Positions 30,280-63,493 of a stretch of 64,000 bases of DNA are shown here, piece after piece. This stretch comes from Ilex aquifolium (Eukaryota; Streptophyta; Magnoliopsida; Aquifoliales; Aquifoliaceae): assembly GCA_951799425.1 (NCBI GenBank), contig OX637391.1, forward strand, positions 25,096,551 to 25,160,550, in the 5' to 3' direction. The position numbers and the translations under genes are program-made. The notes under the pieces were generated by a model. It made no database searches and was not told the DNA's origin. It saw only the letters and a list, made by a program, of their open reading frames with translations. Position 1 is the first letter of the stretch; the number at the start of each line of letters is the position of its first letter.

Positions 30280-32654
30280 TGTGACACTCCTAAACCGGGG
30301 GATCCTTTATTAACCGTTGATAACCCATCAACCCGCAGAAGTACCCGTGATTGTCGCACAACCCGACATCACGTCAATAGCATACCCTTGACCGGGATTA
30401 TAAAAGAAAAACAAAGTCTATATACTTTTAATCGATTGACCCGTCTAAGGTCCAACATACCACCATTGGTAGTCTATTATTGTCAATTTATAACATTTGA
30501 AGGGAGGAAACACATAGCCCAAAAGCTTGGCAAAACAGTTTTAAAATTTTAGATTTTTGGAAAGCGTACCGGTATGGCGTACCGGTACGTTGTGCCTATC
30601 GGACCACGTTGTACCGGTATGCTCTACCGGTACGCCTTACCCAGTTTTGTCTGTTTCACCTGTTTTCAATTTTCAATCCCATCAATTCCATTCCAAAACC
30701 ATCCCATACATGTTTAAAGAAATTTTTCACATAAAACATGCTACGTACAATACCTATTTCAATCAATTCCATATATTTACATGCCAAAACTAAGTTTTCA
30801 TAATAATTTTACAAAAACTCAAAATAAAGCCACATTCCGACTTTCTTCATCCACGGGGCTCGAATTGCGAGCCATCCACCGGCGTATATCCCGCACCTGA
30901 AATGTTTTTCCCATATAAGGTGAGCCACGCTCAATAAAGTATCTCCTAAAGATGCTACTCCCTAATCTAGATGCATATGAAATGTTCACATGCCAACAAT
31001 CAACAACTCATAACATTCCAATTTAGAATATGCATTCCATATTGGAATCTACCGTGCCATGCCATGAAATGAGATGAGACTCACTCACGCACATCAACCC
31101 GAGCCCTTCCCAACTCCTCAACACATGCAAGTGTCAATGTGTATGAATCCGTCATCTATGTTACACATCAAATGACATTTACCAATCTAGGGTCTTTGTA
31201 GGGGTGGATGTTCATGGACTTACACCAAGGGTCACCTAACCCACACGGAATTTACGTACTTCCACCGAGGGCTCTGCGTACACCCACACACTTCATGGGC
31301 CGAACCAAGGGAGTGCGTATCCCAATCACCGGGCCTTGCACCCGAGGGATCTTCTAGCCCTTCTTGCTAACCCCAACCCTACTAACCATGCAAACCGTGA
31401 AACTCGGCCAGGTCTTCGACCAAGCTTACTTGAGCCCACCCGTCATCTACCAAGTGTGGTGTTGACAACAACCATGCACACACACCCACAAAATGCGATG
31501 TTTCCATGCATATGCAATATGATGCCTTATTGCAACAATGACACAATGTTCAATATGCTATGAATGACTATGAACTATTTCAACGCATTCCATGGACAAT
31601 TATATCCAAGCATATAATTTTCATAATCCATCAATGTCAATATATCATAATTATGTATAGATCAACATTTTAGACAACATAATTTTCAAGCACGTTATCA
31701 CATAATCATGCTATCAACATGCTAATTCATCAAGGCATAACGTAAACACACAACATGTCCACAAATCACATAACTCAAGGATCACATTAGGTCAATCTCA
31801 TATATCCAATTCGAAATGGACTTTATTCTACCTATTTTCCATACCCATTTCACCAATTTCATCACAATAGGCAAGTGTTAAGATTATCCAACCACCTACC
31901 CATTTCATACAAACATTCTAGGTTGTAAGTGAACCTAATTAGGAGGGAACCCTACCTCTTGAAGCGTAAAGAACAACTGTAGGAAGCTTTCAAGAACCCG
32001 ATTCAAGCTAGAATCTTCACTTTCCCAAAATCCCGTCCTTGGAATCTCGCCCAAACCCGACCTCCTCGGTATGATTTTCTAGCCCTTGGTGAGGAGAACA
32101 ACTTTTGTTCTTGGCCCGAGTGGATTCGAGTACCTGATCTCCATAGATCGTAGAGAGAAGGTGGAGAGCCCAAACTTTTTCCCTTTCTTCTTGCTCCCTC
32201 TTTTCTATCGGTTAAAAGGCTGAGAGATTAGGAAAAAAATCTGATTTTCTTCCCCTTTTTATAGTCCCCAAATACTTGGTCCACAATTCGCCACACGTCC
32301 TCCTTTTTCCGGGTTCGTTTGCACCCCGAAACGATTAAATTTTGTCCCGATTCAAGTTTAAAATATTTTTATTTCAACCTGCTTTAAATTATTTTCCAAC
32401 TTTCAAAATTTTATTAAAAATTCCGTTTTTTTTTTGTCACCCGAGACTCGACCGCTTCGTAAAACGCAAAAAATCCGACTATCTCCGAATTTGAAAAAAT
32501 TTGACAGGGTAACTAGATTTCGCGAGACAAATCTAACGGTGAGGTCCATTTCGTCATCCGAGTTCTAGAAAAATACAGGTTTTCAACCTGTACTGGAATA
32601 GCAATTTACTGTTTTACCCTTTTCATCAAAGTTCAAATTTACCTGGGTTTTACA
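30280..32654 (-). mobile_element. Chromovirus 3' LTR (complete)
   Basis: In element sense it starts TGTAAAACCC at 32,654 and ends ..GGAGTGTCACA at 30,280. It is 2,375 bp and collinear with the 5' LTR at 41,545-43,318. The palindrome cluster with GTACCGGTA units lies at 30,564-30,636. Compared with the 5' LTR it has two extra 13-bp units there. Confidence 0.9.
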
Positions 32655-32700
32655 TTCTGTCCCCCTTAAAAGAATTTCGTCCCCGAAATTCACACACATG
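32655..32700 (-). other. Polypurine tract region of the chromovirus
   Basis: In element sense, AATTTCGGGGACGAAATTC is followed by TTTTAAGGGGGACAGAA immediately upstream of the LTR TGTAAAACCC. This sequence is highly characteristic of Tekay/Del elements. Confidence 0.85.
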
Positions 32701-32746
32701 CACACTTAACCGCATGCATATGCAACAAGCAAAACAATACTTATGA

Positions 32747-34140
32747 TCACAATAATATACTTCCATCCTCGAATAAGAACGGATAACTGGTACGTATAGT
32801 GTCATCATGCTCCCATGTCGCCTCCTCCACTCCTCGGTGCTGTCATAACACCTTCACTAGTCTCACGGTCTTGCCTCGCAAAACCTGCTCCCGGCTATTC
32901 ATGCGCACCGGTCCCTCTTCGAAGGTCCCATTCGCATCTACAATCAACTCACCCCAATCCACCACATGAGTCGGATCTGGAGTATATTTTCGGAGCATAT
33001 AGACATGGAATACCGCATGAACACTCGATAGATTTGGCGGCAACGCCAACCGGTAAGCAACTGTACCAACCCTCTCAAGTATCTCAAAGGGCCCGATATA
33101 CCTCGACGACAGCTTTCCCCACTTGTCGAACCTGACCACTCCTCTCTTAGGCATCACCTTCAAGAAGACATGATCTCCAACCTCAAACTCCAGAGGTCTC
33201 CACCGTCTATCATCGTAGCTCTTCTGTCGGCTCTGAGCTGTGAGAAGATGTTTCCGTATCAAGTCCACCTTCTCCGAGGTGTCTCTGACCAATTCCGGAC
33301 CCGTATAGGGTCTTTCTCCAACCTTCGTCCAACAAACCGAAGAACGACAATGCCTCCCATAAAGTGCCTCATAGGGTGCCATCTGTATGCTCGCCTGATA
33401 ACTGTTGTTGTACGCGAACTCCACTAAGGGTAAATGTTCTTCCCAGCTACCCTTGAGATCTAGGACGCATGCCCGTAGCATGTCCTCTAATGTCTGGATG
33501 GTCCTCTCCGATTGACCGTCTGTCTGGGGATGAAAGGCTGTGCTCATCATCAACTGTGTCCCCATGGCTCGCTGAAAACTCTCCCAAAAATGAGCTGTGA
33601 ACCTAGGATCCCGATCCGATACTATAGATATGGGCACCCCATGCAACCGGACAATCTCCTGTATATACAACCTGCAGAATTCCTCCAATGTGAAGGTCAT
33701 CCGCACCGCCAAAAAGTGTGCCAACTTCGTAAGCCGGTCCACTATTACCTACACCGCGTTATGCCCTCGTGATGTCTGTGGCAAGTGGGTCACAAAATCC
33801 ATCGTGACGTGCTCCCACTTCCACTCAGCCACCTCCAAAGGCTAGAGCAACCCTGTTGGTCTTTGGTGCTCAGCCTTGACCTGTTGACACGTGAGACATC
33901 GACTAACAAAATCTCCGACGTGCCTCTTCATCCCACTCCAATAATACCGACGACGAAGATCATGATACATCTTCGTGCCGCCTGGATGCACAGAAAAACG
34001 GGAGCAATGGAACTCCCTAAGGATCTCCTCTCTCAGATCTGCCGACTGGGGAACCACAACTCTTCCCCTAAATCGAAGACTGCCATCCGAGTGAATGGCC
34101 CAGCCCTCATCACCGGTACCCATCTGCACTCGGTCCCTGA
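32747..34140 (-). pseudogene. Chromovirus integrase and chromodomain (broken)
   Basis: In element sense: an HHCC zinc finger (HPGGTKMYHDLRRRYYW.. CLTCQQVK, about 34,000-33,880), then the catalytic core. The first Asp is in TMDFVTHLP (about 33,800), the second in IVSDRDPRF, and Glu is in FHPQTDGQSERT. The GPFEILERVGTVAYRLALPP module and a chromodomain (GVEEATWEHDDTIRTSYPF) follow to the stop at 32,747. Nonsense codons occur at about 33,842 (expected Gln), about 33,751 (expected Trp) and 32,840 (expected Trp before the chromodomain core). In the lineage the chromodomain steers integration to heterochromatin; here its tail is cut off by the TGA. Confidence 0.92.
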
Positions 34141-34534: not shown

Positions 34535-36479
34535 TGTAACACCCCAAGATCCCCCCTCAGTCGGCATTACTATTTAAACCCATTCACATCATTAGAGCAA
34601 CTAATAAATTCCAGACATAAAGAAATTTCATTCATCATACATGATATCTACATCATCATCCCAAAAGAATAAGCCAAACCATGGCCATTACATCCAAAAG
34701 AATATGCCCAAATAGGACAATTACATCCCAAAAATCAACTATGAGTTTGTAGCGGAATAACCAAAATATTAGACATTACATTGTCTCAAAATAAACTTCC
34801 TAAGGTAAAATCTAAGAGCATGTAGCTCTAGGCATCAATCTCGGGATCCACGTTCCCGTCTATCGGAGCTTCCCATTGTGCCGGCTCATCAACTCTAAGC
34901 TCTTCCTCCAAACTATAATCTGAAAATATATTATTTGTAGGGGGTGAGCACTAAGCTCTGTAGCAACATTCTCCCAAACTCGAACAAGGTTTAGAAAACA
35001 TATAAAACAAGTCGGTCTCATTTTTACAAATATCATATATAACTTTTGAAGGACAACATGAACATTTTAATAGATCTCTAGTTTACGAACAACAATAAAG
35101 TTAAACGGAGAGGTGAAACCAATTACCAACATGGAGCCATACAATTTTCCCAAAAGTAAACCCATAACCCACACATGATATAATATTGTTCTCTTTGGTA
35201 TGAACATCCTTACAAGGAACCTCTTACCCTCAAGATTTGGTTTCTTTGGCATGAACATCATTACAAGGAACCTCTCACCCTCACAGTCTTGTTTCTTTGG
35301 CATGAGCATCCTTACAAGGAACCTCTCACCCTCACGTTCATCAAAACAACCATACAAAAATACAATATCCACAATTTCTCAAAGACAACAAACCATTCCC
35401 ATAAATCCCCAAATTTCTCATAAAGTAGCACAATAGAGACAATGTGAGAAAATATACAAGAGATCCTCATAAATATCATTTGGTGGTTCAATTTCAAGCA
35501 CTAAAGTTTTTGAATTCAAGCATCAATGAAAAATCAAGAGAAAAACCCCTTTTTCTTGAGAACTAGGGTTTGAGACCAAGAAAAGAGTTTTAATGGTGAT
35601 TCCAGCATAGCATTGTTTAAAACATGACCACATTTACATAAATATCATGAATCAACAATTTCATAGCAAGTATATAAGATTTAGAGTCAAAAGAATGTAT
35701 ATATATGTATACCCTAGCCTCAATGTAAGAGAATGGAAGAAAACCCCTACCTTGAGTCAAGATTTCCAAGCTAAACCCAAGCTCTATAAATCTCCTTCCT
35801 CCCTTAATCTTCCTTTAGGGTTTTAAGAGTTGTGGGGTGAGAGTGGAGTGAAAGAAATGAGGGAAAATGGAAGGAAATGGTGTTATAAGGCTGCCCAATC
35901 CCGATTTTTACTGTTCACATGGCCCAAAAATTACATTTTTCCTTGAAATTACAATTTTGCCACTAACTATCTCCATTTTGATCTCTATGACCACCCTAAG
36001 GTTTTTAGACGTTCCGAATTCATTTTTAATGTTGTTTTATCCTAAAAACATTTAATTTTATGATTTATCATACTACTAAAGTAAATTTATCAGAATTTTA
36101 AAATACAAGGCCTATGTACATTCTTAATCGCTTGACCCCTCCTAGACCCAACATACCACCATCCATAGGATCTACTACACCATCCCAACTATTTGAGACA
36201 AATAAGGATGAAAGGGTAGCTTGGGGATAGCTCAGGAGAGGAGGAAATCAGAAAATCAGGAAGTCAGCCAAACAGTACCGGTATGCGTACCGGTACGCTA
36301 AGGCTTCTAGAGTTCGTTGTATCGGTACGCTTTGCTTGATCTACCCCAATTGCTCTGTGCATTCACATTTCACATTTCCACTCCATTCCAAACCCTTCCA
36401 AAACCAACCCAAACTTATACAACATACATTTGTATATCAACATAGTTGGTATAAGTTCAATTACATGTGGGAGTTTACA
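34535..36479 (-). mobile_element. Solo LTR in the RNase H domain (target duplication GGCYG)
   Basis: 1,945 bp, + strand TGTAACACCCC..GTTTACA. It is flanked by GGCTG (34,530-34,534) and GGCCG (36,480-36,484), one C/T difference, consistent with a CpG transition. Removing it and one repeat restores the RNase H reading across ELAA|IVFAL. Orientation is minus because TGTAAACTCC and GGGGTGTTACA are then its 5' and 3' ends, as in Tekay-like LTRs. It contains three 51-bp tandem repeats (35,192-35,344) and a GTACCGGTA cluster at 36,275-36,330. A truncated relative lies at 46,755. Confidence 0.88.
35192..35344. repeat. Three tandem 51-bp repeats in the solo LTR
   Basis: Units starting TCTTTGG at 35,192, 35,243 and 35,294, each with ATGAACATC or ATGAGCATC and TTACAAGGAACCTCT. 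The period is 51 bp (17 codons), so an open frame survives by chance. Confidence 0.85.
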
Positions 36480-36687
36480 GGCCGCCAACTCCATGTCATG
36501 TGTGGGATAATTCTGTTCGTGGTTCTTTAACTGCCGAGAACCATGAGCCACCACCCTCCCGGACTGCATCAAAACACAACTAAGTCCGTCTTTGGAGGCA
36601 TCACAGTACACTGTGTACATCTGTCCCCTCTTCGGGACTATCAAAATAGGAGCTAAAGTAAGCCTTCTCTTCAACTCCTGGAATGCC
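36480..36687 (-). pseudogene. Chromovirus RNase H N-terminal part
   Basis: A 208-bp island of the chromovirus between two solo LTRs. In element sense it reads [19 protein letters not shown], then [18 protein letters not shown] (with the catalytic Asp), [20 protein letters not shown] and MELAA at the edge of the LTR. Confidence 0.9.
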
Positions 36688-38581
36688 TGATGAGCACAAA
36701 ATATAGTATATTTGAAGGCCTCATTACATTCATTTTAACTCAACTTTTGCATATAAGTACTTAGTGTTAGCCAATTTTATGAATAATGTTGAATTTTCAA
36801 TGTTGCAAGTTTTTATAGCTTAAATGATTGATTTTAGGACCTTGCAACTATGATGGATGTGTGGTGAGGGCATGGACATATTACATGAAGATTTGGAGGC
36901 TTAAAAGTGATGAAATCAAGGAGGTATTGGTGTTTGGGAACAAAAGCACCAGCAACCACACCATCTGGAAACAGAGCCTCGGTATTCCTCCATTTTGACC
37001 ATTATCCGCTTCGAATCTGAAAAATTTCAAAACATAAAAGTTGTAGATCTGTATGTCTTCTATATTTTGTCAAAATTTCAGCTTAATCGGACGGTTGGAT
37101 CAAAAGTTATTCCAATTCTAAGAAGACTGGTCCGGAGCAGAAAAAGCGTACCGGTACGACGAACTCCAGTAGCTTTACCGTACCGGTACGCGTACCGGTA
37201 CACCGTGCCTGACAGCCCAGAATCGCCTGCAATCATGCTCCACTTTCTTGGGGGTCCCACCTGCACTTCTTCCACACCTAGCCCGACATTTTATCCCTAC
37301 AACCATGCCTCCTACACCCTACTTGAAGACATTAATGAGGATGGGAGAGAAAGGGGCTACCAGGGGAGTTGCAGGCTAACCTTCTCCTAGCCTGTCCAAG
37401 CTTCAACTCAGCCTCATATTGATGGGAGGCCTGCACACAGGCTAGGGGGAGCCTCATGGACGAAATTGGAAGGCTCTTTCACCATATATTCAACATTCAC
37501 AAGACATTGAGGTGGTGGCTACCTAAGCTTAGATAGTTCCTAGGAAGAAGAAGAAGAATAGTAGAATAGAAATTTATGGTTTTGCATTTTTATTCCATCA
37601 TTTCTTTTGCAGTTTATTGTAAGACTCTTGCAACCTTCATTTATTATCTTTAATGTCATTTACTTCAAGTACATTTCAAGTTTAATGCTACATTTTAGAT
37701 TGCACCATTGTTGTAGCTAGTTCTTCAATTTCTTGCTTTGAAATGGGTTTTGAATATTTTTCTCCATAGTTCAAGTTTTCTTGCATTGAGTTAAGTTTCA
37801 TGCTTCATTTCAATTATGTCCATTTACATTATGCAATGTCTTTCATTTTATCATGAGTAGCTAGAGTTTTAGTTGGTTAATCCAAGGGAGACCTCCCCGT
37901 GAGGATTCCATTTCAACTCTTCTTTTTTCCTCCACTCGGTGTACGGTGGTTCGGTTTGACTGGGTTGAGAGTGGAAGTGGTTGTGAGTCTTTGATATCCC
38001 GTAGGCCTGGTCACGGGTTATGCTTCGATCCTCACCTCCATTTGGTTGTGAGCTCTTGATACACCGTAGGCATTGTCACGGTGTATGCTTGAATCCTCAC
38101 CTCCATCTCGTCCCTAGCTTCCCACGAATCAATCGTTCATCTAAGCACCATTGGAGGAAGGTTTCGAGTTGAGTTGGGATTCTCATTGGAGTGAACCCTT
38201 CGGATTAGCCAACACTTGTTTTATTGCATTTTCATTCACAAACACAAACACCAAAACACAAACAAAAGATTTTACACTTTTCCCTTTTTACAAAATCACC
38301 TTCACACACTTGAACTTTCCTTCCATGAGGAGACGACCTTGGAATACTTTTCCAAGTAAAACACGACAAGCAAAAGACTCCTTGCTCTTGGGGAGCACTT
38401 TTGTTCATTTCGCACATTCCATTTCATACATTTCATTTCATTCCATCAATCATTTCGTTGCCCTTTCTTTTGACATCATCCCAAGGGAGAGTGACACTCC
38501 CTTTGCACGTAAATCATATACACATTAAGGGATGGTTTTTAGAGGTTAGGAATAGGAAACAACAACGGTTTTCACCAAGCA
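36688..38581 (+). mobile_element. Solo LTR in pol (perfect target duplication ATGCC)
   Basis: 1,894 bp, TGATGAGCAC..CACCAAGCA, flanked by ATGCC at 36,683-36,687 and 38,582-38,586. Removing it and one ATGCC rejoins the chromovirus frame ([11 protein letters not shown] in element sense). It is related to the LTRs at 516-2,211, 62,228-63,493 and 63,676-64,000. It contains a GTACCGGTAC cluster (37,146-37,203) and two 65-bp direct repeats starting at 37,978 and 38,043. The second repeat holds a 9-bp stem, ATACACCGT..ACGGTGTAT. Confidence 0.93.
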
Positions 38582-39150
38582 ATGCCTTCTCACACGATTC
38601 ATCCCACTCGAATTTGACCTCCTTCCGGGTCAATCTTGTCATAGGTGCGGCTAGTTGGGAGAAGTCATCGATGAACCTCCGATAGTACCCTGCCAATCCC
38701 AAGAAACTACGTATCTCGAAGACTGACTTCGGCCTCTCCCAACTCATAATTGCCTCAACTTTCTCCAAATGAACTGACACACCCAAAGTCGATACCATGT
38801 GTCCCAAGAATTTCACCTTCGTAAGCCAAAATTCACACTTGCTGAACTTGGCGTACAACTGATGGTCCCTCAAGGTCTGGAGAACAATCCTCAAGTGACC
38901 CTCATGCTCCTCCTCAGATTTGGAGTAGATCAGAATGTCGTCAACAAACACCACGACGAACTGATCTAAATAGGGTTGGAATACCCTATGCATGAGATTC
39001 ATGAATGCCACCGGGGCATTCGTCAATCCAAATGGCATCACAGTGAACTCGAAATGCCCATACCGCATTCTGAATGCCGTCTTAGGGATATCTGCCTCCC
39101 TGATCCTTAACTGATGGTAGCCCGTGCGGAGATCTATCTTGGAGTTGCCC
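38582..39150 (-). pseudogene. Chromovirus reverse transcriptase, palm and thumb
   Basis: In element sense after a frameshift: [14 protein letters not shown], the [15 protein letters not shown] block, the catalytic FVDDILIYS, then FLGHMVS and [20 protein letters not shown] one-base deletion at about 39,148 (between GAR and SKIDL) separates it from the upstream pol frame. Confidence 0.92.
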
Positions 39151-40087: not shown

Positions 40088-40090
40088 GCC

Positions 40091-41529: not shown

Positions 41530-41541
41530 GCTCTGATACCA
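41530..41541 (-). other. Primer binding site, initiator methionine tRNA
   Basis: In element sense TGGTATCAGAGC lies a few bases after the 5' LTR end (..GGGGCGTCATA). This is complementary to the 3' end of plant initiator tRNA-Met and is the usual PBS for Tekay/Del elements. Confidence 0.9.
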
Positions 41542-41544
41542 AGC

Positions 41545-43318
41545 TATGACGCCCCTAAACCAGGGGATCCTTTATTAACCGTTGATAACCTATCAACCCG
41601 CGGAAGTATCCCTGATTGTCGCACAACCCGACATCACGTCAATAGCATACCCTTGACCGGGATTATAAAAGAAAAACAAAGTCTATATACTTTTAATCGG
41701 TTGACCCGTCCGAGGTCCAACATACCACCATTGAGAGTCTATTATTGCCAATTTATAACATTTGAAGGGAGGAAACACATAACCCAAAAGCTTGGCAAAA
41801 CAGTTTTAAAATTTCAGATTTTTGGAAAGCGTACCGGTACGTTGTGCCTACTGGACCACATTGTACCGGTACGCCTTACCCAGTTTTGCTTGTTTCACCT
41901 GTTTTCCATTTTCAATCCCATCAATTACATTCCAAAACCATCCCATACATGTTTAAAGAAAATTTTCACATAAAACATGCTACGTACAATACCTATTTCA
42001 AGCAATTCCATATATTTACATGCCAAAACTAAGTTTTCATAATACTTTTACAAAAACTCAAAATAAAGCCACATTTCGGCTTTCTTCATCCACGAGGCTC
42101 GAATTGGGAGCCATCCACCGGCGTATATCCCGCACCTGAAATGTTTTTCCCATATAAGGTGAGCCACACTCAATAGAGTATCTCCTAAAGAGGCTACTCC
42201 TCAACCTAGATGCATATAAAATATTCACATGCCAACAATCAACAACTCATAACATTCCAATTTAGAATATGCATTCCATATTGGAATCTACCGTGTCATG
42301 CCATGAAATGAGATGAGACTCACTCACGCACATCAACCCGAGCCCTTCCCAGCTCCTCAACACATGCAAGTGCCAATGTGTATGAATCTGTCATCTATGT
42401 TACACATCAAATGACATTTACCAATCTAGGGTCTTTGTAGGGGTGGATATTCATGGACTTACACCAAGGGTCATCCAACCCACACAGAATTTATGGACTT
42501 CCACCGAGGGTTTCGCGTACACCCACACACTTCATGGGCCGAACCAAGGGAGTGCGTATCTCAATCACCGGACCTTGCACCCGAGGGATCTTCTAGCCCT
42601 TCTTGCTAACCCCAACCCTACTAACCATGCAAACCATGAGACTCGGCCAGGTCTTCGACCAAACTTACTCAAGCCCACCCGTCATCTACCAAGTGTGGTG
42701 TTGACAACAACCATGCACACACACCCACAAAATGCGATGTTTCCGTGCATATGCAATATGATGCCTCATTGCAACAATGACACAATGTTCAATATGCTAT
42801 GAATGACATATGAACTATTTCAACGCATTCCATGGGCAATTATATCCAAGCATATAATTTCCATATCCATCAATGTCAATAAATAACAAGTATGTATATA
42901 TCAACATTTCAAACAACATAATTTCCAAGCACGTTATCACATAACCATGCTATCAACGTGCTAAATTCATCAAGGCATAACGTAAACACACAACATGTCC
43001 ACAAATCACATAACTCAAGGATCACATTAGGTCAATCTCATATATCCAATTCGAAATGGACTTTATTTTACCTATTTTTCATACCCATTTCACCAATTTC
43101 ATCACAATAGACAAGTGTTAAGATTATCCAACCACCTACCCATTTCATACAAACATTCTAGGTTGTAAGTGAACCTAATTAGGAGGGAACCCTACCTCTT
43201 GAAGCGTAAAGAACAACCGTGGGAAGCTTTCAAGAACCCGATTCAAGCTAGAATCTTCACTTCCCTAAAATCCCGTCCTTGGAATCTCGCCCAAACCCGA
43301 CCTCCTTGGTATGGTTTT
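41545..43318 (-). mobile_element. Chromovirus 5' LTR, truncated by the Athila-like insertion
   Basis: Collinear with 30,280-32,080 of the 3' LTR. It is broken at GGTATGGTTTT, where the next element begins TGATGAGTGG at 43,319. The remaining part of this LTR was not found further right. The GTACCGGTA cluster at 41,829-41,875 is two 13-bp units shorter than in the 3' LTR. Confidence 0.9.
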
Positions 43319-44665
43319 TGATGAGTGGGTTTTATACCTACAAATTGAGTATTTTCGGCTTGATGAAATTGTAAGTTTTCAATTATTTTATGTTCCCTTT
43401 TATTTGTTTTGTGTGTTTTGATGTTATTTTGTAGGGATCATCATTTGGAAGGAAACAAGAACATTTGGAAGGAAATAAGGTCAATTTGGAGCCTAAGTGT
43501 TGGATTTTTGAAGGCTAAGCAACAAGGGAAGCTCTAGGCTTAAAAGGGGATCAGCACAGCTGCACCAAAACCAGCGCCCCTGCGCTGGAAAAGCAGTAAC
43601 TCAGCACCCCTGTGCTGATTTTCAGCGCTGCTGCGCTTGTGTTGGCTCGGGACGCGAATTTGGCTTGTTTTTTACCCGAAATTGGACTCTAATGTGACAT
43701 ATATGTTAGGGTTTGAGTTGGAAAGATATAGACTGATTTTGGGGGCTGAAAACATAAGAAGAAGACCAAGGATTGATAGAAAATTGAAGGCAAAAATTGA
43801 AGGAAGCGACGCGAAGAAAATCGGGATTGAAGGCTAGAGAGAGATTGAAGATTGCAACTAAGTTTTCATTCATTTTCTCTTACTTTTAGTTCTTGATTTT
43901 TTGAGATGTTGTTTAATTTGAGGATGATGTTTTTCAATTACATTATGAACTAAATTTTTATTAAGATTGCAACGGGACCTAATGTTTAGTTAAATTGATC
44001 TAATCTCGTTTCTAGTTCTTATTGATCATATATGAGTTGCTTATCATATTTTGTGCTTAATATATGATTGTGTGGCCACCAATTAATTTGATTCCCTAGA
44101 TGAAATTGGGAGATGAATTCTAGGGATAGATCGGAATATGATAACATGTGTCTGGTTGATTCTTCTTAGGATTGAATAGCTGGGTTTGTGTATAGGATAG
44201 GAATATACCTATATGCCGTGTGTAACTTTTATGAGAGTTTGAACTTAATGAATCTATTCCAACTTATTTTGCATAGGAATATAGTAATTTAATTGGGAGA
44301 GATATGTTTATCTTACTATCGGAAGAGGTTTGATAAATAATTTTGAAGTCTTAGTTAACAACTTAATTTGATCAATTAACAGGAAAGAGAGTGGGAAGAT
44401 TTACACGAAGCATTAGGGGGAATTGTAATCTTAAATTCTTTTATCCGTCAAATTCAATCATTGATTATTAAATTTAGATTTAGTTTTGAATTAGTAATTC
44501 CATAGTTCAATTCAAATTGTTTAAATAAAATCAAATTGATATAAAGTTAGTACTTGGAAGTTATTAACAATAATTCTCCGTGGGAACGATACTCTAGTTA
44601 TCACTTTATTACTTGTTGATCGTGTATATTTGCATGTAAATTGTCAATATCAAATTCGGAAAATA
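43319..44665 (+). mobile_element. Athila-like LTR, copy A
   Basis: TGATGAGTGGGTTTTATACC..GGAAAATA, collinear over its length with copy B (44,869-46,196). The final CA is mutated to TA. It contains hairpin motifs AGCGCCCCTGCGCT and AGCACCCCTGTGCT at 43,551-43,638, and the GGGAACGATACTC block near its 3' end that is common in Athila/Tat LTRs. Confidence 0.88.
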
Positions 44666-44868
44666 AGTTTTTGGGAGTATGTTGAATTGTTAGACTTTGC
44701 ACCGTTTTGAAGTTTCCCGTGAATTATTATTTGTAGTAACTTTTGGGGCCATTATTCAGATTCATATTGATCCATTGCTTGAGTAGTTGGTTGTTAGGTT
44801 TAATTTTTATTGTTTTTGTTCTTAGTACTTTGCTTGAGGACAAACAAAGATTTAAGTTTGGGGGTATT
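44666..44868 (+). mobile_element. Residual internal region between two Athila-like LTRs
   Basis: A 203-bp leftover. It starts with the first three bases of the primer site (TGG), then jumps to the 3' internal end (TTTGCTTGAGGACAAACAAA) and the polypurine tract TTAAGTTTGGGGGTATT before copy B. Almost the entire coding interior has been deleted. Confidence 0.85.
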
Positions 44869-46196: not shown

Positions 46197-46202
46197 AGTT
46201 TT

Positions 46203-46220
46203 TGGCGCCGTTGCCGGGGA
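46203..46220 (+). other. Primer binding site, tRNA-Asp
   Basis: TGGCGCCGTTGCCGGGGA is complementary to the 3' end of plant tRNA-Asp, the standard primer of Athila and related elements. Confidence 0.93.
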
Positions 46221-52500: not shown

Positions 52501-52769
52501 GAGGGAGCCAAGGTTGACAAAATCATTATTATTACAAGGATATAAAATAATTGACAAATATCCCAATATACCTAAGAAGAAGGTAATTTTTCCCTATTAC
52601 ATTCCAACATGTTACAAAAAATAAAAAAGTTATCACCAAAACACTCCATGTGGATAAATACGAAAAAATAGCACTGAAAGCTCTGTCAAGTCCCAATTTT
52701 CTCTCATCTGAAGTCCAAATCTTCAAAAATCTATTCATTTTCTGTTAAAAATACAAACATTAGTTCCCT
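49600..52769. other. AT-rich intergenic DNA with two LTR-start fragments
   Basis: No gene recognised. TGATAAGAGCTTATTGATG at 49,600 and TGATAAGCTTGCTGATG at 51,782 each continue into GATGTTACCAATGT and GGGCCTC, so both are copies of the same LTR start or repeat. Otherwise the sequence is AT-rich without repeats I can delimit. Confidence 0.45.
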
Positions 52770-54360
52770 ATGGATACGACTTTAGATTTAACCGAGTTAT
52801 TACTACAACTTGACCACTTATACTTGGGCGTGGATATCTTTAGTCAAGTCAAGAACCCTCCCACCGCCACCACACAATTCGAAGGTGGTGAAGCGGTGGC
52901 TGAAGTAAAATTCCCAACGATTTGGTTAAAAACTAGGATAGAGTCGGCGAGGTGGAAGTCGAAAGACTTTAATGCAATATTTAATACCGTGACACCCAAT
53001 GAGTTTAGGAGAATTGCAAATTGCAAGACCTTCAAGAAAGCATGGGACATCTTGGTTGTTTCCCACGAAGGGACTTCCATAGTGAAGATGTCTAGCCTCC
53101 AAAGGTACACCTCTCAGTTCGAGACTTTGAGGATGCAAGAAGATGAAACATTTAGTGAGTTTTATACTAAATTGTGTGATATTGTAAATTCATTGTTTGC
53201 ATTAGGTACCAAGGTGGATGATGTGGCTATCAAGTGAAAAATCATGAGATCTCTACCCGAGAGATTTCATGAAAAGGTGACCTTGCTAGAGACGAGTGTC
53301 AACATGGCCACGGTATCGATCGAAGACCTAGTAGGGTCGATTTTGACTGTTGAAATGAAACTTCTTCCACCCAAGAAAGTGAAGGGTTTGACATTAAATT
53401 CTAAAATTGAAGAAGGGGGTAAATCCGAGTTACCCCATTTAGGAGGGGACATAACCTATCTTGCGAAAAATTTCAACAAATATTTTAAGGCTAGTGGTGT
53501 CAAGTCCTCAAGGCCGAAATGAAACCCAAGTAGAACTAAGTCTCCTAGAAAGGGAAAAAAAAGGCGGGGGTAGAACTTCTCAACACGAAGTTGAGAAGAA
53601 GGGGCAAGGTCTCCAATGCTATGAGTCTCATGGGTTGGACACATAGCTAGGAATGTGCTAGTGTAAATAAGAAGGACAAAAGATCCTTGAAGGCTAAGGT
53701 GAGTGAAAGTGAAAGTGAGTCCACAACGAGTGCTGACTCCTCTTCTTCAAGTGATGAAGAGAACTTCATAGCTTTTGTAGGTTCATATTCCTCCCCTCCC
53801 ATGAGAAACTTCCAAGAATGAAGAAAAAGAAGTTGAGTAAGTCCCACTATAGATATAGATGACTTAGAAGTAGAAGTCTCTACTAGTGACGATGAGACCG
53901 AGAGTGTTGAGGACCTCCAGGATACGTATAACGAGTTATATAAGGAGTGTCTAAAATAAGGTTAGAAGCTGCTTTCATTGAGCACGAGGCTCAAAACAAG
54001 TGAAGATGAAAATAAGGCACTTTATGTGGACTTAGTTAAGCCAAAATGCTCATATTGTTTAGCTTGAGAAGGGAAGAAAACCCCCTATGACAAGGTGAGC
54101 TTCCTTGAAAGAGAGCATAAAGGGCTTTTAGAGTCTAAGAAGAGTATTGAGTTTAAACTTATAAAACTTGATAGAGACCTTCACAAATTACTAGAGCTCT
54201 CAAAAATACTTTCCTAAAGTACTGAAAAGCTTGATAGAATGTTTTCTATAGCGAAGAGTGTGGGTGACAAGAGAAGCCTTGGCTATACAAATGAGGATAC
54301 CACCACCACTACCTCCAAGATTATGTTTGTGATTTCCCTATTGTGCTCAGGAAGACTTCA
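52770..54360 (+). pseudogene. Ty1/copia gag pseudogene (UBN2-type gag, zinc knuckle, coiled coil)
   Basis: Begins ATG at 52,770 with the copia gag (UBN2) core: WLKTRIESARWKSKDFNAIF, KKAWDILVVSHEGTSIVKMS, FETLRMQEDETFSEFYTKLC and KIMRSLPERFHEKVTLLE. It continues through a broken CCHC zinc knuckle (LQCYESHGLDT, about 53,610-53,640), an acidic/Ser region and a coiled-coil stretch ending KLDRMFSIAKSVGDKRSLGY at about 54,280. Stops at 53,235 and 53,520, a frame change near 53,540 and several later stops break it. Protease, integrase and RT are absent: homology ends near 54,360. No LTR of its own was found. Confidence 0.87.
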
Positions 54361-54958: not shown

Positions 54959-55687
54959 GTGATGAGAGCATATTATTGCATATTATAAGCATCATAACCA
55001 TTCATCATAGTTATGTTTGTCGCTTAATTCCTTTGTGTTAGTTAAGTTTTTGTATTTTATGGGTTATCACTCCTACTAGTAGGTGCAATCCAGAGAGTTA
55101 TCATTTCGGTAGGTGAGTATTGTTCTACCGGTAGGTTGAAGACAGAAGGGCGTCCTACCAGTAAAAGAATAAAGCCACAAGTATGAGGAAAACAATGAAT
55201 AGTCCTACCGGTAGGTCGTTTTCTACTTCCTATCGGTAGGTTCTTGTAAATCTACTGAGATGACAAATTTGAAAAGCAATCTACTGGGTTATTTTAAAGG
55301 CCGTGATTGGTGGATTAAAAAGAGAGAAATCAGCACAAGACTCCTTATAAATACCCAAATCTAGCAAGAAATAAAGGGCTCCCATTCCATCGTTTAGTTT
55401 CACCATTCTTCTTCTTCTTCTCTCTCCTAGGGTTTTTAATTTTCTTCTTTTTAGATTTTTCTCCATTGTTTACTTTACAAGCTCTCTTTAAATTCAAGCC
55501 TTTAATTTCTACACATCAATAATATTTCCTTACTTTATGTGAACGATTTCGTTCCATTGTTATTTGAATACAAGGTATTTACATTACTTGCAATTTCAAT
55601 TCTTGTAATTTAAATTTTTTGCCTTTTTTCTTTAATTTACAATGATGCTTCCTTCAATTGTTTTCAAATTTTTTTTTCTATCATGAG
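54959..55687 (+). mobile_element. LTR, left part (continues at 58,277)
   Basis: Starts TGATGAGAGCATATTATTGC after the purine tract. It holds palindromic units CCTACTAGTAGG, CTACCGGTAGG and CCTATCGGTAGG at 55,072-55,240. It is interrupted at 55,687 by a solo LTR. Confidence 0.75.
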
Positions 55688-58271
55688 TGTAAAACCCGAG
55701 AAAACTTAAACCTTTGTGAAAAAGGGCAAAACGGTAAATTGCCACTACGGTACAGGTTGTAAACCTGAATTTTTCTAGAACTCGGATGACGAAACGGACC
55801 TCACCGTTGGATTCGTCTCGCGAAATCTAGTTACCACGTCAAATTTCGTTGAATTCCGAGATAGTCGGATTTTTCGCGTTTTACGAGACGAACGGGCCCC
55901 GGGTGACCCTGTACACGAAATTTTTATAAAATTTCCAAGTTTGGGGAAATATTAGACACAAGTTAAAATAAAAATAATTCGAACTTGAACCGGAGCGAAA
56001 TTTAATCGTTTCGGGATTAAAACGGACCCGAAATTAAATAGGACGTGTGGCGAATTGTGGGCCAAGTATTCTAAAATATAAATAGGGGGAAAAATTAGAT
56101 TTTCCCCATTGTTCAGCCGGTTGTTCAGCCGATAGAGAGAAAGAGGGAGAAAAGAGAGAAAACTCACCTTCTCTCTACGATCTACGGTGCTACGGACCTC
56201 GAATCCACGCAAGCCAAGAATTAAAGTCGCTCTACTCATCGAGGGCTACGCGGCTATACCAAAAAGCGCAAGTTTTACCGAAGATCAAGGTACGGGATTT
56301 TCGAGAAGTGAGGGTTTTTGCTTGAATCGGGTCTTGGAACTTCCCTCAGTCGTTCCTCACGCTTCAAGAGGTAGGGTTTCTTCCTACTAAGGTTTATTCC
56401 AAGGCTATAATGTTTTTATGGAATGGGTAGGATGATAGCCTATGTATCTCTTGCCTATTGTCGTGAAATTTGGGTGAATTGGGTATTGAAATGGGTAAAG
56501 GAAAATCCTAGTTTGGATAGGTATTTAGAAGTTACTAAATGTGATTTCTATGATTGGATATGTGAAATGAACCCAATGTGAATTCATGTGTTATGTGAAA
56601 AGGTGGGCATGTTATGTGTTTATATATGTATATGCCTTGAAATTCTAGTATGTTGATAACATGCTTGAAATTTGTATTATGGGAATTATATGCTAATGAT
56701 ATGATTTCGCCATGAAATATGAGAAGTGTGATGAGAATGTTCATATGTCACTCATACCATATCGAACATTAAATTATTGTTGCAATGGAGCATCACATTG
56801 CATATGCACGGGAACATCGCATTTAGTGGGTGAGTGTGCATGATTGTTGTCCTCACCACGTGTGGTGGATGGCGAGTGGGCTCGAGTAATATGGGTCGGT
56901 GACCTAGTCGAGTCGCACGGTTTGCATGGTTAATAGGGTTGGGGTAGCAAGAAGGGCTAGACTATCCCTCGGGTGAGAGACCCGGTGATGGGATACGCAC
57001 TCCCTTGGCTCGGTCCATGAAGTGTGTGGGTGTACGCGGAACCTTCGGTGGAAGTCCGTCAATTCCGTGTGGGTTGGGTGACCCTTGGTGTGAGTCCATG
57101 AACATCCACCCCTACAAAGACCCTAGAATGAAATGTCATTTGATGTGAAACATAAATGACGGATTGGTACACATTGGCACTTGCATGTGTAGAGGAGCCG
57201 GGAAGGGCTCGGTTGATGTGCATGAGTGAGTCTCACCTCATTTCATAGCATGGCATTACATGTTTCAACATGGAATATATTCTTGTTGTGGATTGTTGAT
57301 TGATAGCATGTGAACATTTCATATGCATTTAGGTTGGAGAGTAGCCTCTTTAGGAGATACCCTATTGAGCGTGGCTCACCCTTTATGGGAAAAACATTTC
57401 AGGTGTGGGTTTTGCACCGGCGGATGGCTCACTTGGAGAGCATCAAGCATGAAGGGGGCCGGCTTGTGGCCTTAGTTTGAGTTTTGTAAAACCTTTAACA
57501 AAATTCCATTTTGATGTATATATATTATGGAATGAATTGTGATAGAGCTTGTATGAGTTGTGTATTATATGGAAAATCTCATTAAACATGTGTTGGATGA
57601 GTTTGGAGTGTATGGGGTAGCTTTAAGGATGGTTTGGAGGGGAAAGAAATCCATTTTTTTGCTCACAGTCTGAAAACCTACCGGAAGGTGTATGTCGGCC
57701 TTCCGGAAGGTTTTGCTAAAAACCCTGGATGCCTTGTTCACGGCTAATACCTTCCGGAAGGTTTTGCCCACTGGAATAAACCTTCCGGAAGATTTTAGCT
57801 ACTGGAGTAAAACCTACCGGAAGGACTTGTCTACTGGAATGGACCTTCCGGAAGGTTTTGCCTTGGGTTTCTTTTTGACTGCCAAATTCTTCCGGAATGT
57901 TTTGTTTTCTGGAATGAACCTTCCGGAAGGTTTTTGCTACTGATGTCGACCTTCCGGAAGTTCTTGCATTTGATTCTTTTCATTTAACTGTTCTTGCAGC
58001 GACCTTCCGGTAGGAGTATGTCGACCTTCCAGAAGGTTTTCCAAAAATTTGAAATTTTCAAAATGCTTAGCCATGCTTTTGGGCTTTGTTTTCTTTGGTT
58101 CCTATGACATAAATGGACATAAATTGAGGTATAATTGACCTTGTGGATGGTAAATCTGGTTAAAAGCATGTGAATGACGTGGTGTCGGGATATACGACTA
58201 TCACGAGTATTTCCGCGGGTTGACGGATGGTCAACGGTTAATAAAGGACCCCCGGGTTTTGGGGCGTCACA
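55688..58271 (+). mobile_element. Solo Tekay/Del-type LTR (perfect target duplication ATGAG)
   Basis: 2,584 bp, TGTAAAACCC..GGGGCGTCACA, flanked by ATGAG at 55,683-55,687 and 58,272-58,276. It is in + orientation and homologous over most of its length to the reverse complement of the chromovirus LTR (30,280-32,654), including CTCGGATGACGAAACGGACC and the long middle part. In the slot where the chromovirus LTR has GTACCGGTAC units it carries at least ten CCTTCCGGAAGG-type units (57,675-58,040). Confidence 0.92.
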
Positions 58272-58276
58272 ATGAG

Positions 58277-58859: not shown

Positions 58860-60370
58860 GTCTCCTCGAGGAAATCTTTGGTAAACCAAGGTGATTGAAG
58901 AAAGTAAGAGTAAAGAGTTCTTTGAAATTGAGGATTTTAGTAATTAACTAAACTAAAGGTAAATTCAATAAGAGAAAGAACCAGATAATCTTCATATTCC
59001 ATCCCACCTATGAACATAAAGTTACACTCTAAATTTATAACTCATTCGAGTTCGTAATCAAACTCCCTCAGACGGATGATATTCAATAAAAACCTCAATT
59101 AGTAAAAGTAGTGATTTTGGTAACAAATAAGTTGATGGAATAATTTGTATCCCATTGATTGCAGGGACTCCAATAATTATCCGTGAGAAACTCAATTGTC
59201 TACGGATAATAAAGGATGTGTACAAATCAATTAGGTTTCCGAAAAATAACTATTCAATCATTCAATCTCGTACATCATAAAAAACCCTAGTTTAGAGTAT
59301 AAGCCCTAGTTCATAGGTTAGGAGTCCTTGCTCGATTATCCGGGAAGGAAACTACTCACTCATAACGTTAAAACTAAAAAAAAGCATTGAAAGAAACATA
59401 ATTGAATTCAAGAAATAAAGATTGAAGCTGTAAAATAAAACTAAATATAAAATCACCTTGTATTGAAGAACTAAAGTAAAGTTGATTACACTTAAATAAC
59501 TAAATCAAATCGACTTGAAATTGAAGAACAATACTCTAAAACTAAGACAAAGCAACAAAAATAAAGTATGAATGCTAAGGAAAATAAGAACAGAATTGTA
59601 GAGAAGAAAAAGAATCTGAAGAGCTTCAAAGGTATCTTTTCCTTCATGAAAGGTCTTCCATTTATAGTGTGCAGAAGGAAAGTCTTTAGATTTTTCTTCC
59701 TTGAAAATATATCTTATTTCTATTGGTAGAGAATCCCCAAAAGATATGGCAAAAATCAGACTTTAATTAGAGTTTCCTATCAAAATCTACCTCGACCTAC
59801 TAGTAGAACACCATTCTGTCGAACGACCTACTAGTAGCAAATAGATTTCCTACCAGTATAAACTTGATCTGTCAAATTCCTGTAGCCTCTTCTACTGGTA
59901 GGAAATAAGCCCACCTACTGGTAGAACATCATTATGTCTACTCTAGAGAGCTCTGCTACCGGTAGAACATCATTATGTCTACATATTACTGTTCATTATA
60001 GAGGGCCTTTCTACCGGTAGAACATAATTTCACCTTCCAGTAGATTACACACTGTCTTCTTTCCTACCAGTAGAATCCATTTCTACTGGTAGATTCTTCA
60101 TTCTAGCACCCTCCCCCTAGTAGATTTACCTTCGGTAGAACATGACTTTTATGAATTTCTTCCCTAAGGCCTTCGGTTTCACTTCTAATCGATCACACTG
60201 AAGTCTAACTTGTTCAACACCATTATCATGATGCTCCATGTCTAACTTTACACTTGTACTACCTGCAAACACAAAATCAACACAGTAATCGCAAAATAAG
60301 CTAAGTAAAGCAAGTTAATCTACTAGCAAACCTAATGTGAGGATGTTTAACTATAAAATAGTGCAAGAAT
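58860..60370 (-). mobile_element. Probable LTR in minus orientation with CTACCGGTAG units
   Basis: Noncoding. Read on the minus strand it has the general layout of the LTRs at 516 and 54,959, with a cluster of TTCTACCGGTAGAA-type palindromes (59,796-60,092; variants CTACTAGTAG, CTACCAGTAG, CTACTGGTAG). The right limit is set by the chromovirus-type LTR beginning at 60,371. Terminal TG/CA and target duplication are not resolved. Confidence 0.5.
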
Positions 60371-60418
60371 TATGACGCCCCAAAATCCAGGGGTCCTTTC
60401 TCAACCCGTTGATTGATC
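60371..60418 (-). mobile_element. Tekay-type LTR fragment, first piece
   Basis: TATGACGCCCCAAAATCCAG then GGGTCCTTTCTCAACCCGTTG matches the 3' terminus (reverse complement) of the chromovirus LTR at 41,545. It is interrupted after 48 bp by a solo LTR and resumes at 61,981. Confidence 0.8.
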
Positions 60419-61974: not shown

Positions 61975-61980
61975 TTGATC

Positions 61981-62227
61981 ACCTATCAACCCACGGAAAT
62001 ACCCGTGAGTATTGCATAACCCAATATCACGTCTTTACACCCCATTCACCGGGATCATAACCAAAATAGACTTTGGGCAGAGTCTCCTTTGTACGAGAGC
62101 CTTACCCAATTCCGTAACCTATGCATGCAATAATCATATGACCATTCCAAGGTCCAAACCCTATCAACTAAGAATTAATATTTAACCAATTATATCATTC
62201 AAATGAAAGACCTCAAAAGGTGAAGGC
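61981..62227 (-). mobile_element. Tekay-type LTR fragment, second piece
   Basis: Resumes ACCTATCAACCCACGG and AAATACCCGTGA, matching the chromovirus LTR terminus region (30,320-30,420). It continues with GGGCAGAGTCTCCTTTGTAC, which also occurs at 46,870. It is cut at 62,228 by the next LTR. Confidence 0.78.
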
Positions 62228-63493
62228 TAATTAGCACAAAACATTGCATATATTGTATGTTGTTATGCCCTTTTATACTTGCTTTTGTTGTGAATTTTGG
62301 GAGAAATGCATTTAATCATTTCTTTAATGAAGTTTTGTGTGAATGTAGGTGAAAAGTTGTAAATGACTTGAGTTAAGCTCCCATCGTAATGGTTAAAGTC
62401 AATGAAGATGAGGGGATAGTTTAAAGGAAGGATTGGATGGTGAAGAAACTAAGAAAAATGCATTTTGGATAAAAACCTTCCAGAAGGTTTACACTTGGTC
62501 TGCCTATTCACTGCCAAAACCTTCCGGAAGGTTTTGTTTACTGGAATGAACCTTCTGGAAGGTTTATATCGACCTTCCAGAAGGTTTTTCTCACTGGACT
62601 GCTGTTTCATCTATTCCTGCACAAACCTTTCGGAAGGTTTGCATCAACCTTCTGGAAGGTTTTGCCCAGAATGCCTAGACAGCCTGCAATTCAAGCTCTG
62701 CGATTTGGGGGCCCCACCTAAACTTCTCCCACTTGTCCCCTAACATCTCTTACACACATACAAGCCTCCCCTCACCTCAAGTTGGACTTTGGAGGCCATT
62801 GCATTAATGAGGAGGAGAGAGAAGAGCCAAGCCAAGGGAGTTGCAGGCTAGACTTGTCCTAGCCTGCCCAAGCCATCAAGTCAGCCCCCTATGGATGGAA
62901 AACCTGTCACACACCTAGAGAGAGCTCCATGGACGAAAATGCAAGCATTCTTGGACAATTATTCAACATTGTAGAGATATAGAGTGAGAAGCTCCAAGAA
63001 AGAAGACATAGTTTAGAGAGAGAAAGCTTAGATTTTTACATTTCTTCCATCCATTTCACTTGTAATCTTTTGTAAGAATCTTGTAAGCTTCATTTATTGT
63101 CTTTAACGTCATTTATTTCAAGTACATTTGTAAGTTTAAATACACCATTTAGATTCTACCATTGTTGTAGTAAGTTTTCTACATTTCAAGCTTTTAAAAT
63201 GGGTATTCAATGCATTTCTTCTTAGTTAACTTTTCTGGCATTAAGTTAAGTTTCAATCTTCATTTCTTTACAATTTCTCCCTACTTCATTTATGTTCTTC
63301 CATTAAGTATGAGTAGCTAAGCTTTAAGTTGGCTAATCCAAGGGAGAATTCCTCTTGGGTATGCTAAATCAACTCTTTTTCATTCCTCCTTGTAGTGTAT
63401 GATGATTTGGTTTGACCTGGTTGAATATGTATAAGCCATACTCATATTATAGGATGATGTTAAGAGATTAGGGTTGACGGAGTAAGTCAAGTA
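62228..63493 (+). mobile_element. 5' LTR of a retroelement related to the left-edge element
   Basis: TAATTAGCACAAAACATTGC (first G mutated to A) is homologous to the LTR start at 516. The AACCTTCCGGAAGGTT cluster is at 62,472-62,664 and the downstream homologous blocks (CTAGACAGCCTGCAATTCAA, GCCTGTCACACACCTA) follow. It ends ..AGTCAAGTA before the primer site. Confidence 0.82.

Follow-up and report, generated by a model that had tools for sequence, protein, structure and literature searches.

Palindromic arrays shared between chromovirus and Athila LTRs in Ilex aquifolium suggest an exchange of promoter-proximal modules

Introduction

The control regions of long terminal repeats (LTRs) are commonly assumed to evolve together with their element. 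The stretch of Ilex aquifolium DNA analysed here (64,000 nucleotides, hereafter the window) raises the question of how unrelated LTRs came to carry the same arrays of short palindromes. If promoters were traded between chromoviruses and Athila elements, families could alter both expression and silencing in a single step, and classification based on LTRs would mislead.

Results and Discussion

Elements and arrays in the window

Two LTR lineages are present, a chromovirus (hereafter T) and Athila, each with both CCTTCCGGAAGG and GTACCGGTAC arrays. The hosts gave RVP_2, RVT_1, RNase H and integrase matches of the Ty3/gypsy type and have Asp or iMet primer sites; the reverse transcriptase pieces of T and Athila are 37% identical over 141 residues. 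With an iMet primer site present, T is best described as a putative Tekay/Del-like chromovirus, and SH3_Tf2-1 was the only match of its integrase piece. Primer sites for tRNA-Asp were found at 63498 and 46203 (three mismatches and exact, respectively, to the expected motif), and another was seen in the sequence at 7661 of L021, one of the places sampled elsewhere in the genome. A sequence-only reading had placed the Asp-primed elements on the Athila/Tat side; the Athila part of this assignment stands and the Tat part does not, because ORFs match PF20167, which we take to be a marker of Athila and of its env position. These are the ORF that precedes the LTR at 516 and the extra ORFs after the integrase, in the env position, in L019 and L025. 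A third LTR family with swapped arrays, family C, lies outside the window and is a chromovirus with a Chromo match at E 3.4e-4, below the curated cut-off. Nesting of elements is heavy in the window, and its main features are as follows.

516..2214, + strand: Athila-type 3' LTR, directly after a polypurine tract; homologous to the LTRs at 62228 and 36690; ends by eye; upstream ORF matches PF20167
764..925, + strand: CCTTCCGGAAGG array, 5 units, in the Athila LTR
30271..32670, - strand: T (chromovirus, iMet) 3' LTR (T30) of an element at about 30.3-43.3 kb; 30282-32078 pairs with 41547-43318 (93.9%), and 30689-32657 matches the T LTR at 55685-57610
30566..30633, - strand: GTACCGGTAC array, 4 units, in the T LTR
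36690..38588, + strand: Athila-type LTR (A36690), apparently solo, within the T element; homologous to other Athila LTRs; ends and target-site-like AATGCC by eye
37148..37201, + strand: GTACCGGTAC array, 3 units, in the Athila LTR
41530..41541, - strand: primer binding site for tRNA-iMet in the T element, exact match to the expected motif
41547..43318, - strand: T 5' LTR (T41), pairing with the 3' LTR; far end cut by another element
41831..41872, - strand: GTACCGGTAC array, 2 units, in the T 5' LTR
55695..58272, + strand: T LTR (T57) without an adjacent primer site
57613..57653, + strand: Athila-like sequence between T backbone and array; 31/40 to LTR 516, 28/36 to LTR 62228
57677..58036, + strand: CCTTCCGGAAGG array, 11 units, in the T LTR
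62228..63490, + strand: Athila-type LTR, 80.4% to LTR 516 over 1211 columns
62476..62659, + strand: CCTTCCGGAAGG array, 6 units, in the Athila LTR
63498..63515, + strand: tRNA-Asp-like primer binding site, differing from the expected motif at 3 positions

We use CCTT, GTAC and CGTT as shorthand for CCTTCCGGAAGG, GTACCGGTAC and CGTTCGAACG arrays, the last of which were found outside the window. The motifs were found where the sequence-only reading had placed them, far above chance: with up to two mismatches CCTTCCGGAAGG occurs 23 times in the window against 1.2 expected, and with up to one mismatch GTACCGGTAC occurs 12 times against 0.5 expected (0 of 100 shuffles in each case). In the 800-Mb genome there are 17,078 exact copies of CCTTCCGGAAGG and 175 of its reversed control, so that a chance origin is ruled out by the shuffles and the reversed pattern. 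The palindromic units have dyad symmetry around a core that is CCGG in three types and TTCGAA in one, and number 11-12 in the CCTT LTRs of T and 2-6 in the other arrays of the window. Readings of the motifs as heat-shock elements or SBP boxes, which they presumably resemble, were dropped, as neither fits all types. Viral contigs scanned for the CCTT unit with its spacer gave 0 matches.

Array types are swapped between homologous flanks

All four combinations of motif and lineage, as originally proposed, are real. T has GTAC in both LTRs of a single element, at 30,566-30,633 and 41,831-41,872, and CCTT at 57,677-58,036, while the Asp-primed LTRs have CCTT at 764-925 and 62,476-62,659 and GTAC at 37,148-37,201. 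The slot flanks in T were indeed homologous (T57 against T30, 104/143 on the left and 80/97 on the right). For Athila the same claim held on the right (189/272 between A36690 and LTR 516), whereas the left flank was weak beyond the LTR start. Both Athila flanks are supplied by L028, a relative of A36690 (left 363/486, right 267/383), and A36690 with GTAC and L028 with CCTT thus represent a slot swap between homologous flanks. The CCTT units of L028 form two blocks about 230 bp apart, one alone of which lies at the place of the A36690 array. We rejected the possibility that the array at 37,148 is a misassigned nested insertion: the surrounding LTR is Athila on both sides and a CCTT block of L028 occupies the same place.

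A further swap was found in family C, where L021 (GTAC) and L015 (CGTT) share left (187/239) and right (77/104) flanks. L019 (GTAC) and L033 (CCTA) are 70% alike over 1242 columns. Between T and Athila the right flanks aligned over 8/8 bp, below the shuffle mean, and on the left a 40-bp patch alone aligns, which is putative transferred sequence; apart from it the flanks of the two lineages do not align. The copies compared across the genome were few and partly picked by motif; among them, array types cut across lineages within homologous slots, and neither outcome named beforehand as speaking against the proposal was seen. Such swapped slots amount to natural promoter-swap experiments, with the same backbone and different arrays.

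Position of the arrays and their putative function

Of the 20 arrays tested, 9 are followed by a TATAWA that starts at most 93 bp downstream; among random stretches 11% are, and the 93-bp limit was chosen after the data were seen. At 10 of the 20 no TATAWA was found within 220 bp (6 of the 8 in Athila LTRs and 4 of the 6 in T), and in T57 a TATA-like box was noticed by eye close to where the LTR begins, some 1.5 kb upstream of its array. In the two copies whose region before the env-position ORF was examined, L025 and L019, a CGTT array and a TATA box precede the PF20167 ORF. We suggest that the arrays serve Ty3/gypsy LTRs as regulatory modules close to the promoter, putatively tolerant of orientation, and probably clusters of dyad-symmetric sites that would bind a dimeric host transcription factor.

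An unlikely alternative is that the palindromes act in RNA, forming hairpins or dimers in a shared leader and so promoting packaging and template switching, or being cut into small RNAs. All six arrays tested had strong predicted folds (z of -10.2 in T57, -8.4 in T30, -7.9 in L025, -6.8 in L021, -3.9 in L019, where 1 of 200 shuffles was as good, and -3.3 in A36690), and palindrome clusters of a maize Sirevirus attract excess small RNAs (Bousios 2016, cited in PMC10760457). However, good folding is expected of any array of self-complementary units, and the TATA boxes near 9 of the 20 arrays sit downstream of the array, so that a transcript starting there would be without it.

Homology between lineages beyond the palindromes

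The similarity of spacers that had been noted between lineages was borne out and extends past the palindromes. When the units were masked, BLAST between arrays returned the CGTT pair as the sole match because the masked spacers are too short, and CCTT was therefore judged by a shuffle test on two pairs. The spacers of LTR 516 and T57 are colinear with a score of 85 (highest of 1000 shuffles, 60), and for LTR 62228 and T57 the score of 63 equalled the highest shuffle. The CGTT spacer of L015, in family C, has matches in the arrays that precede the Athila env-position ORFs of L025 (42 columns, 88%, E 2.7e-8) and L019 (83%, E 1.7e-4), the search space behind these E values having been set by us.

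Moreover, Athila sequence adjoins the array in three chromovirus LTR variants: in sense over about 40 bp in the CCTT clade, in antisense over about 95 bp in a mosaic fragment at 36,101-36,460, and as a short antisense edge in L027. The homology of T57 to T30 ends at 57610, and the Athila-like patch that follows matches LTRs 516 and 62228 (0 of 2000 shuffles each), the match to LTR 516 stopping 21-22 bp before the array in both LTRs. The patch matched L028 weakly (6/2000) and gave no match to three of the six Athila flanks tested; it is also present in L005 and L029 (0-1 of 1000 shuffles). The mosaic fragment, overlooked in the sequence-only reading, consists of the following parts.

36101..36162, - strand: right-hand T flank, 62 bp, 80.6% to T41 and 79.0% to T30
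36180..36274, + strand: Athila upstream-flank sequence, antisense to the surrounding fragment and adjoining the GTAC array; alignment with the Athila LTR of L019 is 75% over 120 columns (E 6.5e-13)
36275..36328, - strand: GTAC array, 3 units, 88% over 59 bp to the Athila array at 37143-37201
36331..36440, - strand: left-hand chromovirus flank; T30 68% over 148 columns (array included), L027 75% over 59, family C L025 76% over 66 (E 5e-8)

About 95 bp of the L019-like match falls outside the array, and the left flank fits family C as well as T. In L027 the edge is 22/24 identical to the reverse complement of the right Athila border of LTR 62228 (0/2000), with about 9 bp of it outside the unit; three of four Athila borders match it (0, 1 and 2 of 2000) and one does not (372/2000), and each match covers a portion of a palindromic unit. 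No convincing Athila flank was seen in T30, T41 or the old T copy L022 (46/2000 for the best of six flanks tested), and a donor flank for the GTAC array of T30 and T41 was not found.

Could a host transcription factor have favoured the same dyad-symmetric sites in each lineage, the arrays being independent in origin? Sireviruses of distant hosts share near-identical palindromes with otherwise very low homology, according to the comparison in PMC2829016. Several palindrome types are present here, and the mirror-image changes of their two half-sites suggest that symmetry itself is selected. Yet the spacers, and not the units alone, are alike and in the same order across lineages, and Athila sequence outside the arrays sits in chromovirus LTRs; for both reasons we favour descent and transfer and regard convergence as quite improbable. 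On the sequences compared, CCTT in the T57 clade and the mosaic fragment contradict convergence, which survives for GTAC in T30 and T41.

That mutual insertion of Athila and T elements, followed by repair, left Athila pieces in old T LTRs by accident, around palindromes without a role, would suit the heavy nesting and the mosaic, a broken copy whose antisense Athila piece is not expected from simple switching between two sense RNAs, but it is hardly likely given that T57-type LTRs with the array occur at five sampled places (the window, L005 with its second LTR in L032, L021, L029 and L030), that the patch is in all three tested (the window, L005 and L029), and that the two LTRs of the CCTT T element in L005/L032 both carry the array and differ at 1 of 2593 positions, so that the chimera transposed recently and was replicated as a working LTR.

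A model for the exchange of arrays

The cross-lineage spacer homology and the non-palindromic Athila sequence beside chromovirus arrays thus uphold the idea of an exchanged module. They support the view that array blocks have passed between unrelated LTR families, some with a piece of the donor, and suggest that these elements share and swap switches. We consider it likely that promoter modules were copied between lineages by recombination or template switching, and that types also arose in place. Copying would have been at least from Athila upstream regions into Tekay/Del-like chromovirus LTRs, the direction probably being Athila to T, with recombination or switching within or beside the array. 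Since the two strands of a palindrome read alike and many LTRs contain repeats of one 12-mer, short homology would be available in either orientation, and the finding of modules in sense as well as antisense fits this. Lineages with an acquired module would have kept transposing. Not every combination needs a transfer, because some type differences look like conversion in place (shared spacers, mirror-image half-site changes); the same change in both half-sites might spread over the units of an array.

A wider reading, which we put forward tentatively and hold to be possible rather than probable, is that the arrays are regulatory modules circulating among the Ty3/gypsy lineages of this genome. 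The palindrome would then serve both as a switch bound by a dimeric host factor and, in either orientation, as the handle by which it is transferred; promoters would be renewed from unrelated co-expressed elements, and the word would drift by mirror-image changes, perhaps escaping silencing of the old one.

Comparison with known systems

The nearest known kind of array is the RM box of the Sireviruses, which the Ty1/copia comparison in PMC2829016 describes as specific to them. As there, short palindromes with a CG-containing core are clustered in LTRs, here putatively near the promoter, and again before the envelope-position gene, the extra copies here being the CGTT arrays before the PF20167 ORF of L025 and L019. 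RM boxes are given in that source as at least 8 copies per element, clustered upstream of the TATA box, with CpG islands, and 12 of 13 published motifs have a CGG-CCG core (PMC2829016). That core is absent here, where CCGG (three types) or TTCGAA (one) takes its place and no single unit among the array types compared has CGG followed by CCG. Unlike the Ty1/copia Sireviruses, the hosts here belong to Ty3/gypsy and are of two kinds; one slot holds several array types, and homologous arrays are common to lineages. The maize Sirevirus palindrome CACCGGACNNNGTCCGGTG (Bousios 2016, cited in PMC10760457) likewise clusters in the LTR cis-region with strong predicted folding, but the account in PMC10760457, as far as it was available, describes no move of an array between lineages with a donor flank, such as is found here.

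Recombinant centromeric retrotransposons of grasses have likewise exchanged LTRs and other parts between subfamilies and proliferated, with template switching or nested illegitimate recombination proposed (PMC4079200). That exchange is between related CR subfamilies, whereas here it involves a chromovirus and Athila, at a palindromic array. The chimeric elements of Triticeae are also attributed to switching during reverse transcription (PMC1950507); those are fusions of whole elements, whereas here a small module lies inside an LTR.

Further arrays in the window

A CCTACCGGTAGG array, overlooked in the sequence-only reading and of a type found both inside and outside the window, lies in an LTR start whose match to A36690 is weaker (8/1000 shuffles) than that to L028.

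54961..55694, + strand: Athila-like LTR start, interrupted by a T LTR; first 23 bp 21/23 to the L028 LTR start (0/1000 shuffles)
55073..55235, + strand: CCTACCGGTAGG array
59790..60110, + strand: array of TCTACCGGTAGA-like units, by eye

Elements and array types in the window

The window holds the following LTR features of the chromovirus lineage T (Tekay/Del-like, tRNA-iMet primed) and of the tRNA-Asp-primed, Athila-type lineage, along with one array listed apart from both lineages.

30,282-32,078 and 41,547-43,318, minus strand: LTR pair of a T element (T30 and T41), 93.9% identity
41,530-41,541, minus strand: iMet primer site of this element, exact
55,695-58,272, plus strand: second T LTR (T57)
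starts at 516, 36,690 and 62,228 (LTR 516, A36690 and LTR 62228), further start at 63,678: Athila-type LTRs
59,790-60,110: TCTACCGGTAGA-like units arrayed with spacer ACATCATTATGTCTAC

Homology with the second T LTR extends the left LTR of the minus-strand T element to about 32,670; the element also contains pieces of gag, protease, RT and integrase. We take the tRNA-Asp-primed elements as Athila, not Tat, on the basis of ORFs matching PF20167, a family that marks Athila; one lies directly before LTR 516 and others form the env-position ORFs of L019 and L025 (L numbers denote sampled pieces of the same genome outside the window). RT pieces of T and Athila are identical at 52 of 141 residues.

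Two LTR-like copies at 43,313-46,205 (92.9% identity, about 190 bp apart) stand ahead of a tRNA-Asp primer site at 46,203 that matches exactly; motif scans found no palindromic array in these Athila-type LTRs. At 52,745-53,237 a copia-type gag ORF (PF14223) adjoins an Athila-like LTR end, perhaps a chimeric or nested element. An exon at 18,116-19,588, with a weak protein-kinase match below the curated cut-off, resembles plant IRE1.

The sequence-only reading had placed two palindrome motif types in both lineages. Both lie where it located them, far above chance, and each lineage carries both: in T, GTAC arrays in T30 and T41 and a CCTT array in T57; in Athila, CCTT arrays at 764-925 and 62,476-62,659 and a GTAC array at 37,148-37,201. 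The word CCTTCCGGAAGG occurs 17,078 times in the whole genome (800 Mb, 103 contigs), against 175 for the reversed pattern. The window occupies G000:C1:25,096,551-25,160,550 of this genome, which its retrotransposons indicate to be a plant's. That reading lacked a further Athila type, CCTACCGGTAGG, at 55,073-55,235, which recurs in Athila-like LTRs at L013 9545-9665 and L033 3090-3225 and whose spacers, by eye, resemble those of the CCTT type. Outside the window, Athila carries GTAC in L019 and L033, CCTA in L013 and L033, CCTT in L028 and CGTT in L025.

Family C, a third LTR family with an iMet site, a weak chromodomain match and an LTR pair with 96.8% identity across the 1,076 columns available for both, has GTAC arrays in L021 and L025/L026 and a CGTT array in L015. 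The flanks of the slot, that is, the array's place between homologous LTR flanks, are alike on both sides between L021 and L015 (left 187/239, right 77/104), and on the right only between L025 and L015. Array-free copies also occur (the Athila LTR at L021 5,976 and the T copy L014).

Athila sequence beside chromovirus arrays

The proposal that these modules are exchanged between families is supported by Athila sequence beside arrays in chromovirus LTRs. In T57, homology with T30 ends at 57,610. Directly beyond lie 40 bp that align with the Athila flanks of LTR 516 (31 of 40 positions) and LTR 62228 (28 of 36), each at 0/2000 shuffles. The match to LTR 516 stops 21-22 bp short of the array in both lineages. 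A weaker match to the patch comes from L028 (6/2000 shuffles), the Athila flanks of L013, L019 and A36690 do not match it, and the T backbone directly outside it has no comparable Athila match (best 32/1000 shuffles). The same patch is found in L005 and L029, the T57-type LTRs tested for it outside the window.

A second case is a mosaic at 36,101-36,460, which comprises, in order, a chromovirus left flank, a GTAC array, an antisense Athila flank and a T right flank. Its Athila piece of about 95 bp matches L019 (75% over 120 columns, E 6.5e-13), and its right flank is 80.6% identical to T41. For the left flank, T30, L027 and the L025 LTR of family C all give matches, so that either T or C may be its source; the Athila piece beside the array is unaffected by this.

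In L027, T flanks (right 215/229, left 81/113 to T57) enclose an array that matches Athila in reverse orientation only. Its left edge matches the Athila right border read in reverse complement, at 22 of 24 positions for LTR 62228 (0/2000 shuffles), with about 9 bp of the match falling outside the palindromic unit; LTR 516 and L028 gave 1/2000 and 2/2000 shuffles, and the L013 border did not match (372/2000). T30, T41 and L022 showed no convincing donor flank among six tested (best 46/2000 shuffles). Since several Athila LTRs have these flanks and, among tested T copies, only the affected ones do, we infer that transfer ran from Athila to T.

Shared spacers

The CCTT spacers are alike and colinear in Athila and T. 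With the units removed, LTR 516 and T57 spacers scored 85 against a best of 60 in 1000 shuffles, while LTR 62228 and T57 scored 63, equal to the best of 1000. For CGTT, a spacer of chromovirus C matches the array before an Athila env-position ORF (42 columns, 88%, E 2.7e-8). The spacer word ACTGGA, on either strand, occurs at 5.7 per kb in 23 arrays versus 0.41 per kb in the 264 kb of window and sample; it is found in 14 of the 23, whose copies are not independent, and is missing from T30, T36, L022, the 55-kb array and the family C and env-position arrays. These comparisons support a relationship by descent, beyond mere likeness, between the arrays of Athila and chromoviruses.

Possible in-place change of array words

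Array type can also shift in place by concerted mirror-image substitution, with no exchange needed. The CCTT, CCTA and GTAC words have CCGG in common, and each difference between them is mirrored in the two half-sites; Athila CCTA and GTAC arrays have common flanks (L033 versus L019, 70% over 1242 columns) and, by eye, common spacers; thus type change without exchange is possible. In a tally of 80 CCTT units from eight arrays (six T, two Athila), the central CG is intact in 67/69 T units versus 5/11 Athila units. The six altered ones read TG (3), CA (2) and TA (1), mostly as would be expected from decay of methylated CpG.

Recent activity and possible function

The chimeric form was recently active: the LTRs of the L005 T element, both with the T57-type array, differ at 1 of 2593 positions, and its long ORF matches gag, protease, RT, RNase H and integrase models.

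We hypothesize that the arrays are promoter-proximal sites for a putative dimeric factor, and that the palindrome would double as an orientation-free handle for recombination. A TATAWA starts 13-93 bp downstream in 9/20 arrays versus 11% of random stretches, the 93-bp limit being post hoc and the array copies not independent; the nine comprise four arrays from family C, one from an Athila LTR, the two at the env position, and those of T30 and T41. One further array has TATAWA at 105 bp, and 10/20 have none within 220 bp downstream, a distance at which 24% of random stretches contain the box. CGTTCGAACG arrays precede the Athila env-position ORF (PF20167) at L025 3498-3797 and L019 8844-9036, with a TATA box 13 bp and 47 bp downstream, respectively, likely forming a second, internal promoter. 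All six arrays tested have strong predicted RNA folds (z -3.3 to -10.2), so the arrays could possibly act as RNA.

Known systems and other palindromes

The closest known system is the Sirevirus RM boxes (PMC2829016), palindromes clustered in LTRs before the TATA box, with copies before the envelope gene, which the Athila env-position arrays resemble; that paper terms them Sirevirus-specific within a Ty1/copia comparison. For recombinant centromeric retrotransposons, PMC4079200 describes LTR exchange between related subfamilies. The titles and abstracts searched report no exchange of a palindromic module between chromoviruses and Athila.

In twenty 10-kb pieces at fixed coordinates, CGTTCGAACG was the top perfect 10-mer palindrome after two TA repeats (26 in 3 pieces), followed by GTACCGGTAC (12 in 3 pieces) and CTTCCGGAAG (8 in 1 piece, tied with an AT-only word). 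The sample is small and L005 and L027-L030 were picked for the CCTT motif, so array counts are uninformative on frequency. Near a contig end (G000:C1:60,594-192,100), recurrent CCTT clusters, several spaced 7.6-7.8 kb, have the appearance of LTR pairs of T elements gathered in a single region (one pair checked). At L017 ~8,880-9,170, a tandem array with G-box palindromes (GACACGTGTC) is perhaps another LTR built on the same principle.
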